Assembly (NCBI GenBank): GCA_040757775.1
Contig: JBFLWQ010000023.1
Coordinates: 1 to 55,863 of the forward strand
From: Thermodesulfobacteriota bacterium
GTDB lineage: Bacteria; Desulfobacterota; UBA8473
Direction of reading: 5' to 3'
DNA length: 55,863 bases
Position numbers and translations under genes: made by a program. Positions within the stretch are counted from its first letter, which is position 1, and every line of letters begins with the position of its first letter. The notes beneath the pieces are model-generated. The model was not told the DNA's origin, searched no databases, and saw only the letters and a list, made by a program, of their open reading frames with translations. Below, in pieces: positions 218-6,844 of this stretch.

Positions 218-445
218 ATGCCTGCCACTAAGAAACTTGTCGATGAAGCCCTTTCTCTTCCAGTCGAAGATCGGGCGCTTATCGCAGATTCCTTATTGAA
301 AAGCCTTAACACGCCCGACCCTGACATTGATAAAAAATGGATAGAGTTAGCTAAACGGCGCCTTGGGGAACTTCGTTCAGGAAAAGTCAAACCGATTCCA
401 GGTAATAATGTATTTGACAGGATTCATGAACGGTTTGCCAAATGA
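218..445 (+). CDS. Antitoxin, addiction-module (Unstab_antitox) family
   Basis: A 75-residue protein of the putative addiction module component family (PF09720 type). Family hallmarks are the N-terminal pattern with LPVEDRALIADSLLKSL, the acidic DPDIDKKW segment and a basic C-terminal part that wraps the toxin. It would neutralise the toxin encoded immediately downstream and probably repress its own promoter. A GGAGGT ribosome-binding site sits at 207-212. Its stop overlaps the toxin start (ATGA, 442-445), so the two are translationally coupled. The palindrome GTTTAGTAAAC at 160-170 next to a TATTAT hexamer (171-176) could be the operator; that is inference. Confidence 0.85.
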   Translation: MPATKKLVDEALSLPVEDRALIADSLLKSLNTPDPDIDKKWIELAKRRLGELRSGKVKPIPGNNVFDRIHERFAK

Positions 446-732
446 GATACTTTTTTCACCCTGAAGCCGAGGCCGAGTTTGACGCTGCTGTAGACTACTA
501 TGAAGATTGTGAGCCAGGTCTCGGTTACGATTTCGCAGTTGAGGTGCATGCCACCCTTGAGAACATTCTCAGTTTCCCAAAAGCTTGGCCTATACTTGAA
601 GACGATATCCGGCGCTGCCAGACTCGACGTTTTCCTTTTGGCATTATCTATGCAATCAACGAAGATGTTATCTTCGTCCTTGCCGTTATGCACCTGCACA
701 GAGATCCTGAATACTGGAAAAGTAGATTGTAG
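442..732 (+). CDS. RelE/ParE superfamily toxin
   Basis: A 96-residue toxin of the RelE/ParE (plasmid stabilisation) superfamily. It has the usual N-terminal helix region with FHPEAEAEFDAAVDYYE, a central GYDFAVEV segment, a RRFPFGIIYAI beta-hairpin and a C-terminal strand with VMHLHRDPEYW. The length is normal for the family. The HRDPEYW ending is common in ParE-like proteins paired with this antitoxin type, so gyrase or ribosome-dependent mRNA cleavage are both possible targets; the sequence does not decide. It overlaps the antitoxin by four bases. The pair next to an IS end suggests horizontally acquired DNA. Confidence 0.88.
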   Translation: MRYFFHPEAEAEFDAAVDYYEDCEPGLGYDFAVEVHATLENILSFPKAWPILEDDIRRCQTRRFPFGIIYAINEDVIFVLAVMHLHRDPEYWKSRL

Positions 733-1891: not shown

Positions 1892-2893
1892 TCAAATCAT
1901 TAACTCTTCAAGCTGGTTTCTTTCCAGGGGCAATACCTGAAAGATCCCTGTCCTGCCGGAGGGGTATTCTTTATAACTGACGGAAATCTCCTTTTCATTC
2001 TTTGCTTTGCTATACCCTGCTGTTATACATGCGGGCAGTTTGCTCAAAGAATCTTCCAATTCTCCCCTAACGATAGTTAGTGGTCCTGGAAAATCCAAGA
2101 CTTTGTAAATAAAATCACCTTTCCGGGCAAAACTCAAGACTTTTTTGTTCTCCTTTTCGTTCCTCCCTACTATGGTTTTTGCCCTAGGAGACAGGCGGAA
2201 ATGCCTTCCTATTTTCAAAAGATGAACGTCATTCAGGGTAAAGTCTGGATTATGATCCATCAGATCCCGCATCCTTTTTGCGAAACCGGGGTCAGTGAGT
2301 AAACACCCACCGGCAGGGCACGGATAATCATTGATCCCCAATTTCTCTGCCAGGGCAATCTGTGGTTTTCTGGATCGTCCCTGAATATCCAGCAGCTTAT
2401 CTCTGTCTATCAACCCCTCACTTTCGGGTATAGTTGGTGGTAGCAACTTAGCGGAAAGGGGTCTCAGAATCAAACCATCAAAGCCTGAATCCCTTTCGAT
2501 GATCCTCATGGCATCTCTCCTCTGGGACATGGGTCTTTCTCCCAATACTTCACCTGTTATCAAAAAAGATGCCCCTTGCTTCCTCATATACTCCCCGGCC
2601 TTTTTGAATGTAAATATACGACAGTCCAAACATGGGTTCATGTTTCTGCCATACCCGTATCTGGGATGTTTGACCAGCTCTAATATCTCTCTTGAGATGT
2701 TAACGACCTTGAGTTTAATCCCCAATTTATCTGCTGCTTTTTTCCCTTCCAGACAGCCACTGTTGGAGGATGTGCAGGTACAGAAAGCCGATATAAAATT
2801 TATTGCCCCGACCTCTATGCCCATATCCAAAATAAGCTTAACTGCCAGTGTACTATCCAGCCCACCGGAAAGAAGGGCAATGGCTTTAGTCAA
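1892..2893 (-). CDS. PP-loop ATPase, ThiI/MnmA-like tRNA thiolation protein
   Basis: A 333-residue protein that starts with a PP-loop (SGGLDS, residues 9-14), the ATP pyrophosphatase signature used to adenylate tRNA uridine before sulfur insertion. Cysteines at 38, 40, 47, 88 and 91 (NPCLDC) and 192 and 197 (CPAGGC) could bind an Fe-S cluster or carry sulfur. There is no rhodanese domain. This architecture occurs in proteins annotated as ThiI-like 4-thiouridine synthases or as DUF814/NFACT-R-containing thiolases in anaerobes. The start is TTG at 2893, overlapping the stop of the small upstream gene by eight bases, which implies translational coupling. Neighbouring genes also use sulfide, so sulfide may be the donor; that is inference. 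Confidence 0.75.
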   Translation of the reverse strand: MTKAIALLSGGLDSTLAVKLILDMGIEVGAINFISAFCTCTSSNSGCLEGKKAADKLGIKLKVVNISREILELVKHPRYGYGRNMNPCLDCRIFTFKKAGEYMRKQGASFLITGEVLGERPMSQRRDAMRIIERDSGFDGLILRPLSAKLLPPTIPESEGLIDRDKLLDIQGRSRKPQIALAEKLGINDYPCPAGGCLLTDPGFAKRMRDLMDHNPDFTLNDVHLLKIGRHFRLSPRAKTIVGRNEKENKKVLSFARKGDFIYKVLDFPGPLTIVRGELEDSLSKLPACITAGYSKAKNEKEISVSYKEYPSGRTGIFQVLPLERNQLEELMI

Positions 2894-3026
2894 GATTAAC
2901 CTCCATATGCTCTATGACCCTGGTATGTTTTTCACAAAACTCATACTCGCTATTGATTTGGGCATGGATGACCTCTTCCTGCCAATGGGCGTTATATAAC
3001 CTCCAGGTATATCCTTTGTAAGTCAA
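2886..3026 (-). CDS. Small protein (46 aa) coupled to the PP-loop ATPase
   Basis: An open frame of 46 codons fills the gap between thi4 and the PP-loop ATPase. It begins at TTG 3026 after a purine-rich AGGGGTGG ribosome-binding site and ends at TAA 2886-2888 inside the start of the next gene. The peptide is rich in aromatic, acidic and His/Cys residues (for example YKGYTWRLYNAHW near the start, FCEKHTRVIEHME near the end), which looks like genuine protein rather than noise. The open frame also continues upstream of the TTG without a stop into the thi4 3' end, so a longer form with a non-standard start is possible. No family was recognised. Position and coupling suggest a helper of the tRNA-thiolation enzyme. 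Confidence 0.55.
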   Translation of the reverse strand: MTYKGYTWRLYNAHWQEEVIHAQINSEYEFCEKHTRVIEHMEVNLD

Positions 3027-3085
3027 TGCAGCACCACCCCTGCTCCCTTCTTCATGGAGAGTAATATTGTAGCAATGTTTATGTC

Positions 3086-3871
3086 CTACACTGAAGATGC
3101 GAGCTCCTGCACGAGCATGGTTGCTGCTTTCTTGCCCGAAAGGAGCATGCCGCCAAAGATTGCGCCCATGCGGGGGCCGCCAAAGGTAGCATTTGCTGAC
3201 ATCCCGGCGACGTACAATCCAGGGAAGACCTCTTTGGTATTCTCCAGCGTAAGCGTCTCTGCCCGTTCAGACCACATAGATTTCTCGCCCTCGATCTTCC
3301 CGCTTGCCGTTTTCAGTTTCCCAGGGACCTTCTCCTGAACTACCTTGACAACCTCAACGGGGTGGCCAGAGGCATCCAGCACGAATCGAGCTCGAACAGC
3401 CAGTGGGTCGACATGCAGGCCGGCGATTTCCACCGCAGACCAGTTTAAGACTACCCCTACTACTCTGTCGGGACGCATCAGCACATCCTCCACACTAACG
3501 CAATTAAAGATCGTCAGTCCAGCTTGGACGGATTTAGACGCAAGAGTTGAAATTGCTTCAACGGAATCCGCAGTGTAATAGCCTGTCTCATACGGTTGAT
3601 ACCGAATGGAGAACTCGTCGAGAATGGGGAGTGCGGATTCCTGTACAACGATTTCGTTGTACATCATACCGCCGCCCCACATACCGCCCCCTACGCTGAG
3701 TTTACGTTCGTAGAGCGCCACTTTCTTGCCTGCCTTTGCCAGGTAGTACCCAGCTACTAAGCCAGCCGGGCCACCACCAGCGATAGCAACATCTAATTCC
3801 AGATTATCGAGGAGCTTCCGTGAGAATCGCTCGATTATCGCCCTTGAGATTACCACTTCGTCCAGTTCCAT
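3086..3871 (-). CDS. thi4: Thi4-family thiazole synthase, sulfide-dependent type
   Basis: Makes the adenylated thiazole precursor of thiamine from NAD and glycine. Seen: the FAD/NAD-binding GGGPAGL motif, a [10 protein letters not shown] segment, and the C-terminal [24 protein letters not shown] region typical of Thi4. At the place where suicidal yeast-type Thi4 carries its sulfur-donor cysteine, this protein has AGLHVDP with histidine (about residue 153 from the chosen start). This is the pattern of archaeal/anaerobe Thi4 enzymes that use free sulfide catalytically. An ATG at 3886 is also in frame. The ATG at 3871 is preferred because GGAAG lies four bases upstream of it and nothing suitable precedes the first. 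Followed by the small gene and the PP-loop ATPase. Confidence 0.88.
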
Positions 3872-3990
3872 ATTGCTTCCTTTCATTTTACTGTTTTATT
3901 GGCATAATGCCGGAGCTAACACGCTGGAAATGCACAGTCGTTTTCCCATTGATTCTCCAGCAATTTCTTATGCCCATTTTTTGAGTATTA

Positions 3991-4398
3991 TTAGAAATGA
4001 ACTTCAACAGCACGATAGGGACAGATAGGAATACATAACTCACAGGCTATACATTTTTCCTTTCTGAAAGATACTGACATATCCTTTCTGTCCACAACGA
4101 ATGCCCCTGAAGGACATATGGATATACAGGCAGTGCACTGGGTACAACGGTCTTTATGCCACCCTACTTCCTGGGTTAATGGCTGTACGTGTACCCCGAT
4201 TTCATTCAGGTAATTCATTCCTGATTCCATATCCTTTTTATTGCCACCAATCTCTATTACTAATCTGCCTTCTTCTTTTGGAGTCACATTTGCCCGTAAT
4301 ATATTTACCATTAAATTGTGGTCCTTAATCAGATGGTATGTAATTGGTTGATCAACTAACCTGCCTGGAAAGGTTAAAACTATTCTCTTTTTTGACAT
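3991..4398 (-). CDS. NIL domain plus 2[4Fe-4S] ferredoxin, homocysteine biosynthesis partner
   Basis: 135 residues. An N-terminal NIL domain (about 1-75, the small ACT-like domain also found in MetN) is followed by two 4Fe-4S motifs: Cys 85, 88, 91, 95 and Cys 116, 119, 122, 126. Proteins of this architecture are genetically linked to the DUF39 protein in methanogens and sulfate reducers (MA1822 with MA1821 in Methanosarcina acetivorans), where both support homocysteine formation from aspartate semialdehyde and sulfide. The role is probably electron supply for the reductive sulfide transfer. It lies 24 bases downstream of the DUF39 gene in the same transcript. Confidence 0.88.
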   Translation of the reverse strand: MSKKRIVLTFPGRLVDQPITYHLIKDHNLMVNILRANVTPKEEGRLVIEIGGNKKDMESGMNYLNEIGVHVQPLTQEVGWHKDRCTQCTACISICPSGAFVVDRKDMSVSFRKEKCIACELCIPICPYRAVEVHF

Positions 4399-4422: not shown

Positions 4423-5655
4423 CTATCTCATTCTCTCTGAAGAACCTGCTTTTTTTATCGGTTTTGATGGCATGGGCTTGAAGGTTATCCCGGATTCAAC
4501 AGATGGTAAGGCTGCAACAGGCTCAGTCAATAGAAAATCGCCCCTTTTTATTAAACCCTTAAGTATTTCAGCTATCTCTCTAGCCTTTGCATAACTGGAT
4601 AGTCCGGCGGTCTTTACCTCTTTCCCCTTAACATTTATCTTCCCACTCTTTAGCTCGGCATAATTGACTTCTCCAAGGGTGTCCGGCTTTCTTTGAGGGT
4701 ATGCATCGCTGTAATCTACAATCTGCGTGAAGATATCTTCATCTCTGACAGTAGTGTATTTGAGTATCTCTTCGTCGAGGATAGGAATTGGTATACCTAT
4801 TCCTACTGTTAAGGTAGCCCCATAACCTGTAAAGGTAGTTCCTCTAAGCCAGTTAGGATTCATTTGTTTAAGGTCGCCAATTACAGCAATGGTACCTGCA
4901 GGTGCCCTTGGAACTCCATTCTTACTTCTTGACACAGACGGATTGTGTTGGGTACCATTCCAGATTATGTAGCCGATCCCGCCTCCCATGAATATCCTGG
5001 TTCCAATGCCAATGGTTTTATAGTAGGGGTCATTTAAAAGAGGACTGAGTTGTCCTGCGCTGCAATAATTAGCATTCCCCAATTTTGGCTGTAATGTTCC
5101 CATATAGGTATATATTACTTTGTCTGAAAGGTTCACAGCAACGTTGTAGTTCTGATAGGAATTTCTTGGGTTGAACAGAACCGCTTCATTTATATCCTTA
5201 ATATTGATAGTAGTTTCAACAATTTTTCTGGGATAACAGTCTGTCCCGTAAGCCGTAGCTGTGAGCTTAACATCCTTACCTGCTACCAATTCCTCTATTA
5301 CATGTCCGCCCCCGTATCTGAACTCTCCGGGGAATACGGTGTTTCTTGGATCATCATCTGGTATGGCTGTTGCTCCAATATATACATCTACTGCCGCAAT
5401 GCCGGTATAAACCGGTATATTATTCAGATACGCCTTGCCTCCACCTATCTTTATCCGTGGTTTAGAATGTCCCAGGTTGAGATATGCGCCGGAACTGCAC
5501 ATAGGGCCGAAGGTACCGGTAGTAACTACGTCTATTTCACGAACAGCCTTTTTTGTCCCCTTTTCTTTTACGATATCGATTATCTCTTCAGCAGTGACAA
5601 TAACTGCTTTACCTTTCTTTATTTTTTCATTAATCTCAGCAATTGTTCTTGTCAT
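4423..5655 (-). CDS. DUF39 (COG1900) homocysteine biosynthesis protein
   Basis: 410 residues, DUF39 over nearly the full length, without the C-terminal CBS pair that methanogen homologues carry. Characteristic segments are VTTGTFGPMCSSGAYLN (Cys 53), the glycine-rich IKIGGGKAYLN, and AYGTDCYP (Cys 140). The two cysteines sit where the essential cysteines of characterised homologues are expected. The enzyme converts aspartate semialdehyde and sulfide to homocysteine in anaerobes lacking the classical O-acyl-homoserine route. Good ribosome-binding site (GGAGGT, six bases upstream). Heads the sulfur block and is preceded by a long structured leader, which suggests regulation by a sulfur or methyl metabolite. 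Confidence 0.88.
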   Translation of the reverse strand: MTRTIAEINEKIKKGKAVIVTAEEIIDIVKEKGTKKAVREIDVVTTGTFGPMCSSGAYLNLGHSKPRIKIGGGKAYLNNIPVYTGIAAVDVYIGATAIPDDDPRNTVFPGEFRYGGGHVIEELVAGKDVKLTATAYGTDCYPRKIVETTINIKDINEAVLFNPRNSYQNYNVAVNLSDKVIYTYMGTLQPKLGNANYCSAGQLSPLLNDPYYKTIGIGTRIFMGGGIGYIIWNGTQHNPSVSRSKNGVPRAPAGTIAVIGDLKQMNPNWLRGTTFTGYGATLTVGIGIPIPILDEEILKYTTVRDEDIFTQIVDYSDAYPQRKPDTLGEVNYAELKSGKINVKGKEVKTAGLSSYAKAREIAEILKGLIKRGDFLLTEPVAALPSVESGITFKPMPSKPIKKAGSSERMR

Positions 5656-5693
5656 AACTTACCTCCAAATTTAGGATTCCCCCCTTTTTGTTT

Positions 5694-5763
5694 GTGGTGG
5701 GGATAATGCCTGGCTAACCCCTTAATGGGGCATAACATTATCCATAGCATAAAACCCACCACC
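5694..5763 (-). promoter_or_regulatory. Structured leader RNA upstream of the homocysteine operon (candidate riboswitch)
   Basis: On the minus strand GTGGTGGG (from 5755-5762) pairs with CCCACCAC (from 5694-5701). Directly stacked inside, GGATAATG (from 5736-5743) pairs with CATTATCC (from 5701-5708). An 11-base unpaired segment (5744-5754) bulges from the 5' side only, and an inner CCCC/GGGG hairpin (5718-5721 with 5727-5730) caps the fold. The structure lies between the predicted transcription start (about 5815) and the DUF39 start. It does not match SAM-I/II, THF or TPP riboswitch core motifs as I remember them. It is seen by eye only and no covariation is available. Confidence 0.5.
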
Positions 5764-5821
5764 TCCTTTCTGTACTTTGCCCTAAAATTAGAGGACTGTA
5801 TGAAAAAAATAAAAGTGCTAT

Positions 5822-5850
5822 TTTATATCACAGCTGCTATTCTCATGCAA
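5822..5850 (-). promoter_or_regulatory. Promoter of the DUF39-NIL-thi4 block
   Basis: On the minus strand, -35 TTGCAT (5845-5850) and -10 TATAAA (5822-5827) are separated by exactly 17 bases. This predicts a start near 5815 and a leader of about 160 bases that contains the structured element at 5694-5763. Confidence 0.6.
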
Positions 5851-5860
5851 AGAAAAAATC

Positions 5861-6844
5861 CTAACTTACACTCTCAAAGACTATTCCGGCTGTCCCTATA
5901 ATTCCGGCATCATCTTCAAGACTGGCATTAACTATAACTTCCTCCTTTACAGGAAGATTTATAGCTCTTTTAAGAATCTCTTCCCTGGCAGGTTTTAATA
6001 TTAAATCTCCAGCGCCGGCAACTCTTCCACCAATAACAAACCTGTAAACATTCAGTATATTTATGAGACTTGAGACAGCTATGCCTAAGTATTTCCCTGC
6101 CTCTTCCATTATGTTAAGGGATAGTTTATCTCCGGCTACAGCTTCTTCAAAGACCATCCTGGATGTGATAAGGTTAAAATTTCCCTCTATCCTGTTTAGT
6201 AAAGATGAATTTATCCCCTTTTTTAATGCCATGACAGCCCTGTTGACTATTCCTGTTCCAGAGGAATAGCTCTCCAGGCATCCGTATCTGCCGCATTGGC
6301 ATTTAAGTCCAGAGGGTTCCACTACCATATGGCCTATCTCTCCTGCCGCGCCATCTTCTCCTGACCATATCTTTTTATTCAATATCAACCCTCCGCCTAC
6401 TCCAGTACCCAGGGTAATGCCTACCATACTGTTGTAGCCCTTTCCTGCTCCTCTCCACCACTCACCATAAGTAAAACCATTGGCATCATTTTGGATTGAG
6501 ATTGAAGGGAAGGGCATTCTCTTTTGTATCTCCTCCCCCAATGCCACATCTTTCCAGCCCGGCAAGTTTGGAGACTCTCTGATTATTCCCCTCTTAATAT
6601 CGAGAAATCCTGGGGTTCCTATACATATCCCTTTGACCTCTCCGGAAAGTTGGTTTGAAATTTCAACTAGTTGTGTTAACAGGTCTACTATGCGATTGAT
6701 TACTTCATCCTTTCCGTCTTCAGCCAGGGTAGGCATTTTTAGACTCTTTAGGATTCTCCCCTCTTGGTCTACTATTCCTCCCCTTAGATTAGTACCTCCC
6801 AGATCTACGCCTATAGCGGTAGCTTTAATATTTGATTTGTTCAT
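5861..6844 (-). CDS. ROK family sugar kinase (glucokinase-like)
   Basis: 327 residues. N-terminal ATP-binding loop GVDLGGTNLRGGIVD, the sugar-binding segment with NDANGFTYGEWWRGAG, GTGVGGGLIL, and the ROK zinc motif GHMVVEP...CQCGRYGCLE. No N-terminal helix-turn-helix, so it is a kinase rather than a ROK repressor. Glucose, N-acetylglucosamine or mannose-type sugars are the usual substrates; the sequence suggests glucokinase but does not prove it. It ends just upstream of the promoter for the homocysteine operon. Ribosome-binding site AGAGGT is very close to the start. Confidence 0.88.
   Translation of the reverse strand: MNKSNIKATAIGVDLGGTNLRGGIVDQEGRILKSLKMPTLAEDGKDEVINRIVDLLTQLVEISNQLSGEVKGICIGTPGFLDIKRGIIRESPNLPGWKDVALGEEIQKRMPFPSISIQNDANGFTYGEWWRGAGKGYNSMVGITLGTGVGGGLILNKKIWSGEDGAAGEIGHMVVEPSGLKCQCGRYGCLESYSSGTGIVNRAVMALKKGINSSLLNRIEGNFNLITSRMVFEEAVAGDKLSLNIMEEAGKYLGIAVSSLINILNVYRFVIGGRVAGAGDLILKPAREEILKRAINLPVKEEVIVNASLEDDAGIIGTAGIVFESVS

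Follow-up and report, generated by a model that had tools for sequence, protein, structure and literature searches.

A previously undescribed, very short leader reading frame before the HcyBio homocysteine biosynthesis gene in at least four bacterial phyla

Attenuator and arrest-peptide leaders are the described systems that the element reported here would work most like, and we place it in neither class. Leaders of the translational attenuation type (MsrDL, with the peptide MYLIFM, ErmCL and cat-86) share with it a strong ribosome-binding site and a very short conserved hydrophobic peptide; an RNA structure able to hide the downstream start, as in that type, is also predicted in the window's genus but is not general in the element. 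Those leaders serve antibiotic resistance, whereas the element precedes a biosynthetic gene and has a hairpin fixed at +20 and a fixed out-of-frame AUG. In trpL and the uORFC-8-2 cysS motif (PMC8632094), a leader ORF carries codons for the amino acid of the pathway, as in the element; however, the element conserves Met1 and Met5 only, and no intrinsic terminator or antiterminator was found in the leader of our window. A true Met-rich attenuator, akin to the trpL type, does occur among other HcyBio leaders (L327). The odc1 uORF motif (PMC8632094) likewise combines a conserved short-peptide uORF with an RNA structure and was predicted by comparative genomics, but its peptide has 11 aa, it belongs to another gene and phylum, and its structure lies largely upstream of the uORF. 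In the model proposed for the toiL uORF of topAI (PMC12121999), stalling of a ribosome uncovers a ribosome-binding site that is otherwise hidden, although that system senses antibiotics in E. coli and is unrelated in sequence. The HcyBio element is absent from Rfam and was not found in the literature searched, and neither was any regulation of the DUF39/HcyBio route, which leads from sulfide to homocysteine without homoserine. Homocysteine synthesis in Desulfovibrio requires HcyBio/NIL genes (PMC5764234). The very short leader reading frame before HcyBio, present in at least four bacterial phyla, is previously undescribed.

The window, i.e. the whole 55,863-nt stretch of DNA analysed, has a gap of ~205 nt (5860-5656, minus strand) between a ROK gene and HcyBio/DUF39, with the following features:

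5861-6844, minus strand: ROK gene, upstream neighbour of the leader.
5822-5850, minus strand: likely promoter, TTGCAT (5850-5845), 17-nt spacer, TATAAA (5827-5822) and an extended -10 TGA; direct reading, moderate.
5781-5794, minus strand: CCUCUAAUUUUAGG, 5' partner in a potential helix with the HcyBio Shine-Dalgarno region (MFE/centroid).
5760-5771, minus strand: AGAAAGGAGGUG, extended Shine-Dalgarno of the leader ORF; a Shine-Dalgarno is present in nearly all homologous leaders.
5750-5652, minus strand: leader ORF MLWIMLCPIKGLARHYPHHKQKGGNPKFGGKL, 32 codons, its TGA stop overlapping the HcyBio ATG; read from the sequence, with an open frame in homologues.
5736-5750, minus strand: core AUG CUA UGG AUA AUG (M-L-W-I-M), conserved across homologous leaders.
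5717-5731, minus strand: hairpin GCCCC-AUUAA-GGGGU, whose 5' arm starts at +20 in the leader ORF, a position that recurs in homologues.
5662-5675, minus strand: CCUAAAUUUGGAGG, Shine-Dalgarno region of HcyBio, which the predicted fold pairs with 5794-5781 (MFE/centroid; accessibility 0.17).
4423-5655, minus strand: HcyBio/DUF39 homocysteine biosynthesis gene, the presumed regulated gene (PF01837, E 3.1e-158).
3991-4398, minus strand: NIL/ferredoxin partner gene (PF09383 NIL and 4Fe-4S domains).

The PF01837 match (3.1e-158) bears out the assignment to a DUF39 homocysteine operon made in an earlier, sequence-only reading. The promoter, which that reading called near-perfect, is moderate instead, with three of six consensus bases in TTGCAT and five of six in TATAAA, and went unflagged in a consensus scan. 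Behind HcyBio and NIL (1892-3886, minus strand), the window encodes a sulfide-dependent ADP-thiazole synthase (TIGR00292) and, in the same sulfur-themed run, a PP-loop protein that resembles ThiI/MnmA and carries an NFACT-R_2 domain. A small gene pair at 218-732 (plus strand) resembles a toxin-antitoxin module (addiction-module component and ParE-like) and is a candidate for one.

Across homologous leaders, the consensus consists of an extended Shine-Dalgarno (GGAGGUGAU-like), AUG NUA UGG AUN AUG, four free bases and the hairpin, and the start of the leader ORF is kept in same-genus and same-family relatives of the window. Among 37 less redundant members, codon 1 is ATG in 32, GTG in 2 (L086 and L316), TTG in 1 (L055) and another codon in 2; in L076, the ATG has moved upstream, still in frame. 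Codon 2 is always NNA, of the form [L/V/I] ending in A. At codon 4, where the frame stays open, 30 members encode Ile, 2 Leu, 1 Val, 2 Thr and 2 Ser, while codon 3 is UGG in 34 and UGU in 3 (L302, L310 and L316) and codon 5 is AUG in 37 of 37, the counts for codons 3 and 5 being partly dictated by the search pattern. Conserved Met codons are Met1 and Met5 only, the latter being the single elongator Met codon. The leader frame is open to +33 in 32 of 33 homologues, compared with 14 and 19 of 33 for the other frames. Given that the peptide after codon 5 is not conserved and ORF length varies from 7 to >45 codons, conservation is confined to the five codons. L327 has its LWIM codons within a longer in-frame ORF, and there too the hairpin is at +20. 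A function of the long peptide was considered and rejected, as substitutions after codon 5 among L057, L102 and L120 are mostly non-synonymous (by eye). A Shine-Dalgarno, a start codon, a selectively open short frame and a fixed position before one gene mark the element, on sequence grounds, as a leader ORF.

Constraint is also visible below the level of amino acids. Base 6 is A in 34 of 34 L/V/I codons, and in 33 of 33 in the set found without requiring A, compared with third-base A at 23% of L/V/I codons in the same HcyBio genes. This fixed A creates an invariant out-of-frame second AUG (5745-5743 in the window, where the in-frame AUG lies at 5738-5736), and Trp or Cys at codon 3 is what a fixed UG without a stop would permit. 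The out-of-frame AUG at +6 may thus act at the nucleotide level. The AUGGA of the core, which we take to be a form of the CsrA motif ANGGA, was rejected as a CsrA site because the GGA is broken in L056, L083, L089, L302 and L310. In L268 (G117), the leader MIWSM is joined almost directly to the HcyBio start, and the hairpin and spacer of its relative L201 (G145) are missing, which reflects either a natural deletion or an assembly effect.

In most of 42 homologues, the 5' arm of the hairpin starts between +19 and +21, ~4 nt past codon 5. The arms differ in sequence (GCCC/GGGC, GCUCC/GGAGC, CCCC/GGGG, UUUGUCCC/GGGACAAA and UAUAUA/UAUAUA), the loops vary freely, and the mean hairpin score is 11.6 versus 5.3 for dinucleotide shuffles (Wilcoxon p 2e-11); folding energies give further evidence. 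In the CM alignment, which leans to structure, the arms covary, with four of four pairs changed on both sides.

A pattern derived from the leader ORF (TGNNNTGGATNATGNNNNNCCCN{3,12}GGG) was scanned in 395 Desulfobacterota genomes. Matches of the form NTATGGATNATG precede HcyBio, the other matches look like chance occurrences inside other genes, and a reversed control pattern gave one match. In the first scans, W3, M5 and an NTG/NTA codon 1 were required; allowing one mismatch added only L072 (W to C), and a start-free scan added L324 and L327, where the element lies at internal positions. Of 164 distinct HcyBio leaders taken from several collections, a sample skewed towards relatives of the window, 34 have the element. 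Using a covariance model trained on 27 of these 34 leaders, we searched ~920 genomes (326 Desulfobacterota, 151 Chloroflexota, 50 Atribacteria-type, 384 Omnitrophota and a few more). All matches >27 bits lay directly upstream of HcyBio and none before other genes; the remaining matches were no better than chance. Core and hairpin precede HcyBio in ~40 distinct genomes of Desulfobacterota, Omnitrophota, Chloroflexota and an Atribacteria-type phylum, and are missing from some relatives, such as L007 and L008 of the window's own family.

Sister HcyBio leaders carry devices linked to methionine. In family f20 (L017, L211, L214, L217, L319, L320 and L321), a SAM-I riboswitch (RF00162, 87-91 bits) lies upstream of HcyBio at five loci; L319, truncated by its contig end, and L320 gave no RF00162 match. 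After SAM-I, f20 leaders have a conserved ORF that is acidic and contains Met (MDRES[NDG]M..xDMxM), and downstream of it lies an anti-Shine-Dalgarno sequence. In L327 (136-280), the ORF MNDQFNTHTGFMMSMMHTRGAPMD, closed by a stop, is followed 26 nt later by a terminator hairpin (at 237; -21 kcal/mol, T7) and then by the LWIM element, an arrangement that reads as a textbook Met attenuator before HcyBio; only L327 has a terminator between leader ORF and HcyBio. A second, Met-rich leader ORF, MEMDMQDPGDMW, is present in L057, L102 and L150, with a close variant in L152, and is preceded in this group by a TTGACA/TATAAT-like promoter. This ORF (MEMDMQDPG[DN]MW...KTDFG and stop; L102 3525, L057 2958, L150 1152) lies ~340 nt before the MVWIM/MIWIM start. 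Counting short ORFs only, Met-rich ORFs were found in 2 of 129 leaders without the element versus 1.2 expected, and in 15 of 164 versus 1.9 expected when longer ORFs and element-bearing leaders were included, so it is their own conservation that supports the cases of f20, L327 and f73/f95. Two single observations are a Met- and Cys-rich ORF running into HcyBio in L019 (G033; MSDMSHMCKMCHWKCFFVM) and a c-di-GMP-I-GGC riboswitch (63 bits) at 128-247 of L102, far upstream of HcyBio. Given the SAM-I riboswitches, Met attenuator and Met-rich ORFs of sister leaders, methionine-linked control is likely, and the signal is most likely methionine or SAM status.

As for the readout, the helix between 5794-5781 and the HcyBio Shine-Dalgarno is kept in five family members, with no double changes. 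Predicted Shine-Dalgarno accessibility is low in the window (0.17), L013 (0.00) and L136 (0.02), and similar hiding is predicted in L006, L013, L136 and L057. Over 27 leaders, however, mean accessibility equals that of shuffles (0.49 vs 0.49), and sequestration was rejected as a shared mechanism. A long helix hiding the HcyBio Shine-Dalgarno is, on these predictions, a likely readout in the window's genus, and other lineages presumably use a different one. The leader ORF is open to the HcyBio start in 9 of 27 leaders versus 7 and 3 in the other frames, which is not decisive for translational coupling, and no conserved coupling distance from leader ORF to HcyBio was found.

We lean, with somewhat more confidence than doubt, towards a translated leader ORF (uORF) dedicated to HcyBio that would tune HcyBio to methionine supply via leader ribosomes. 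Ribosomes would initiate at the leader-ORF start, and, by general ribosome geometry, the hairpin at +20 would first reach the mRNA entry site when the P site holds codon 4 and the A site Met codon 5. The ribosome would slow at Met codon 5, becoming methionine-sensitive through charged Met-tRNA or the nascent MxWIM peptide, and a leader occupied or cleared by ribosomes would set HcyBio expression. Several observations sit less easily with this model: a peptide does not need the invariant A of codon 2 or the out-of-frame AUG, the Trp to Cys change (UGG to UGU; L302, L310 and L316) fits a nucleotide constraint, conservation extends to a single elongator Met codon, the HcyBio Shine-Dalgarno is not generally sequestered, and no terminator or conserved coupling distance was found.

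Less likely, the nascent fMet-x-Trp-Ile-Met might itself halt the ribosome as a metabolite-sensing arrest peptide, the small molecule involved being Met, SAM, homocysteine or a sulfur species. The five conserved residues are the only ones and are hydrophobic or aromatic, the L311 leader has just 7 codons (MLWSMCI), and xLWIM is retained in an open frame at the internal positions of L327 and L324. There is also a precedent in MsrDL, whose MYLIFM, with erythromycin, stalls with Met6 in the P site (PMC10314930). However, Cys stands for Trp and Ser/Thr for Ile in some members, and peptide sensing leaves the fixed wobble base of codon 2 unexplained. It is possible, though we would not count on it, that a five-residue chain, paused by a fixed-distance hairpin, acts within the ribosome as a direct sensor of methionine, SAM or homocysteine and so controls HcyBio in several phyla; if true, fMet-x-Trp-Ile-Met would rank with the shortest arrest peptides known to sense a metabolite. 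The three AUGs (in two frames) and the hairpin could also form an RNA-level signal, with initiation choice or ribosome occupancy regulated without a peptide and the +6 AUG as a possible second start. In favour of such a signal, which we hold to be unlikely, the invariant bases are A6U7G8 and A13U14G15, the L324 Shine-Dalgarno is spaced for the +6 AUG (AAGGAG-8 nt-AUG), and the hairpin lies right next to where an initiating ribosome would have its footprint. Against it, Shine-Dalgarno spacing suits the +1 start in most leaders, and in 14 of 33 a stop ends the +2 frame within 11 codons.

The earlier reading had proposed a structured leader or riboswitch. Its wider claim, a methionine-linked cis-regulatory leader of the HcyBio operon, is well supported by the occurrence of the element only upstream of HcyBio, in several phyla, and by the SAM-I or Met-rich attenuators of sister leaders. 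Of the structure itself, the leader is real and the named stems can form, but the strand is minus and the fold is only modestly above shuffles:

5762-5756 with 5700-5694, minus strand: stem 1, GUGGUGG/CCACCAC.
5743-5736 with 5708-5701, minus strand: stem 2, GGAUAAUG/CAUUAUCC.
5730-5727 with 5721-5718, minus strand: cap stem, CCCC/GGGG.

Against dinucleotide shuffles, the window fold has a z of about -2, with 6-8 of 200 shuffles equally good, and its inner part is paired otherwise in the MFE. What had been taken for an 11-base bulge (UUUUAUGCUAU) makes up, together with the beginning of stem 2, the predicted ribosome start site for the leader ORF, preceded by AGAAAGGAGGUG, whose 3' part pairs with CCACCAC (5700-5694) in stem 1. 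The conserved parts of the window leader are the leader-ORF start and the cap hairpin, whereas the long two-stem fold is limited to the window's family among the homologous HcyBio leaders compared, and none of 32 pairs in its long stems changed on both sides in an alignment of five family members. Rfam scans at gathering and relaxed thresholds gave chance snoRNA matches only and no family above the gathering threshold; the search does work on HcyBio leaders, since SAM-I matches those of f20. Although conserved unpaired bases, the hairpin, the gene context and SAM-I in the element's place in f20 would suit a small-molecule aptamer, the leader is probably not a riboswitch. We hold the aptamer reading to be very improbable because there is no Rfam match or multi-stem core, the stacked stems are family-specific and without double changes, the loops vary freely, and what is conserved is a site for ribosome binding, five initial codons in an open frame and a short hairpin.

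Through a leader ORF that serves HcyBio across phyla, it would become possible to approach directly how these anaerobes adjust methionine synthesis to their needs. The presence of SAM-I or Met-rich attenuators at the same place in sister lineages makes this a case of interchangeable regulators, and with a core as small as five codons and a hairpin set at a constant distance, it can be tested directly how short a ribosome-based sensor can be.
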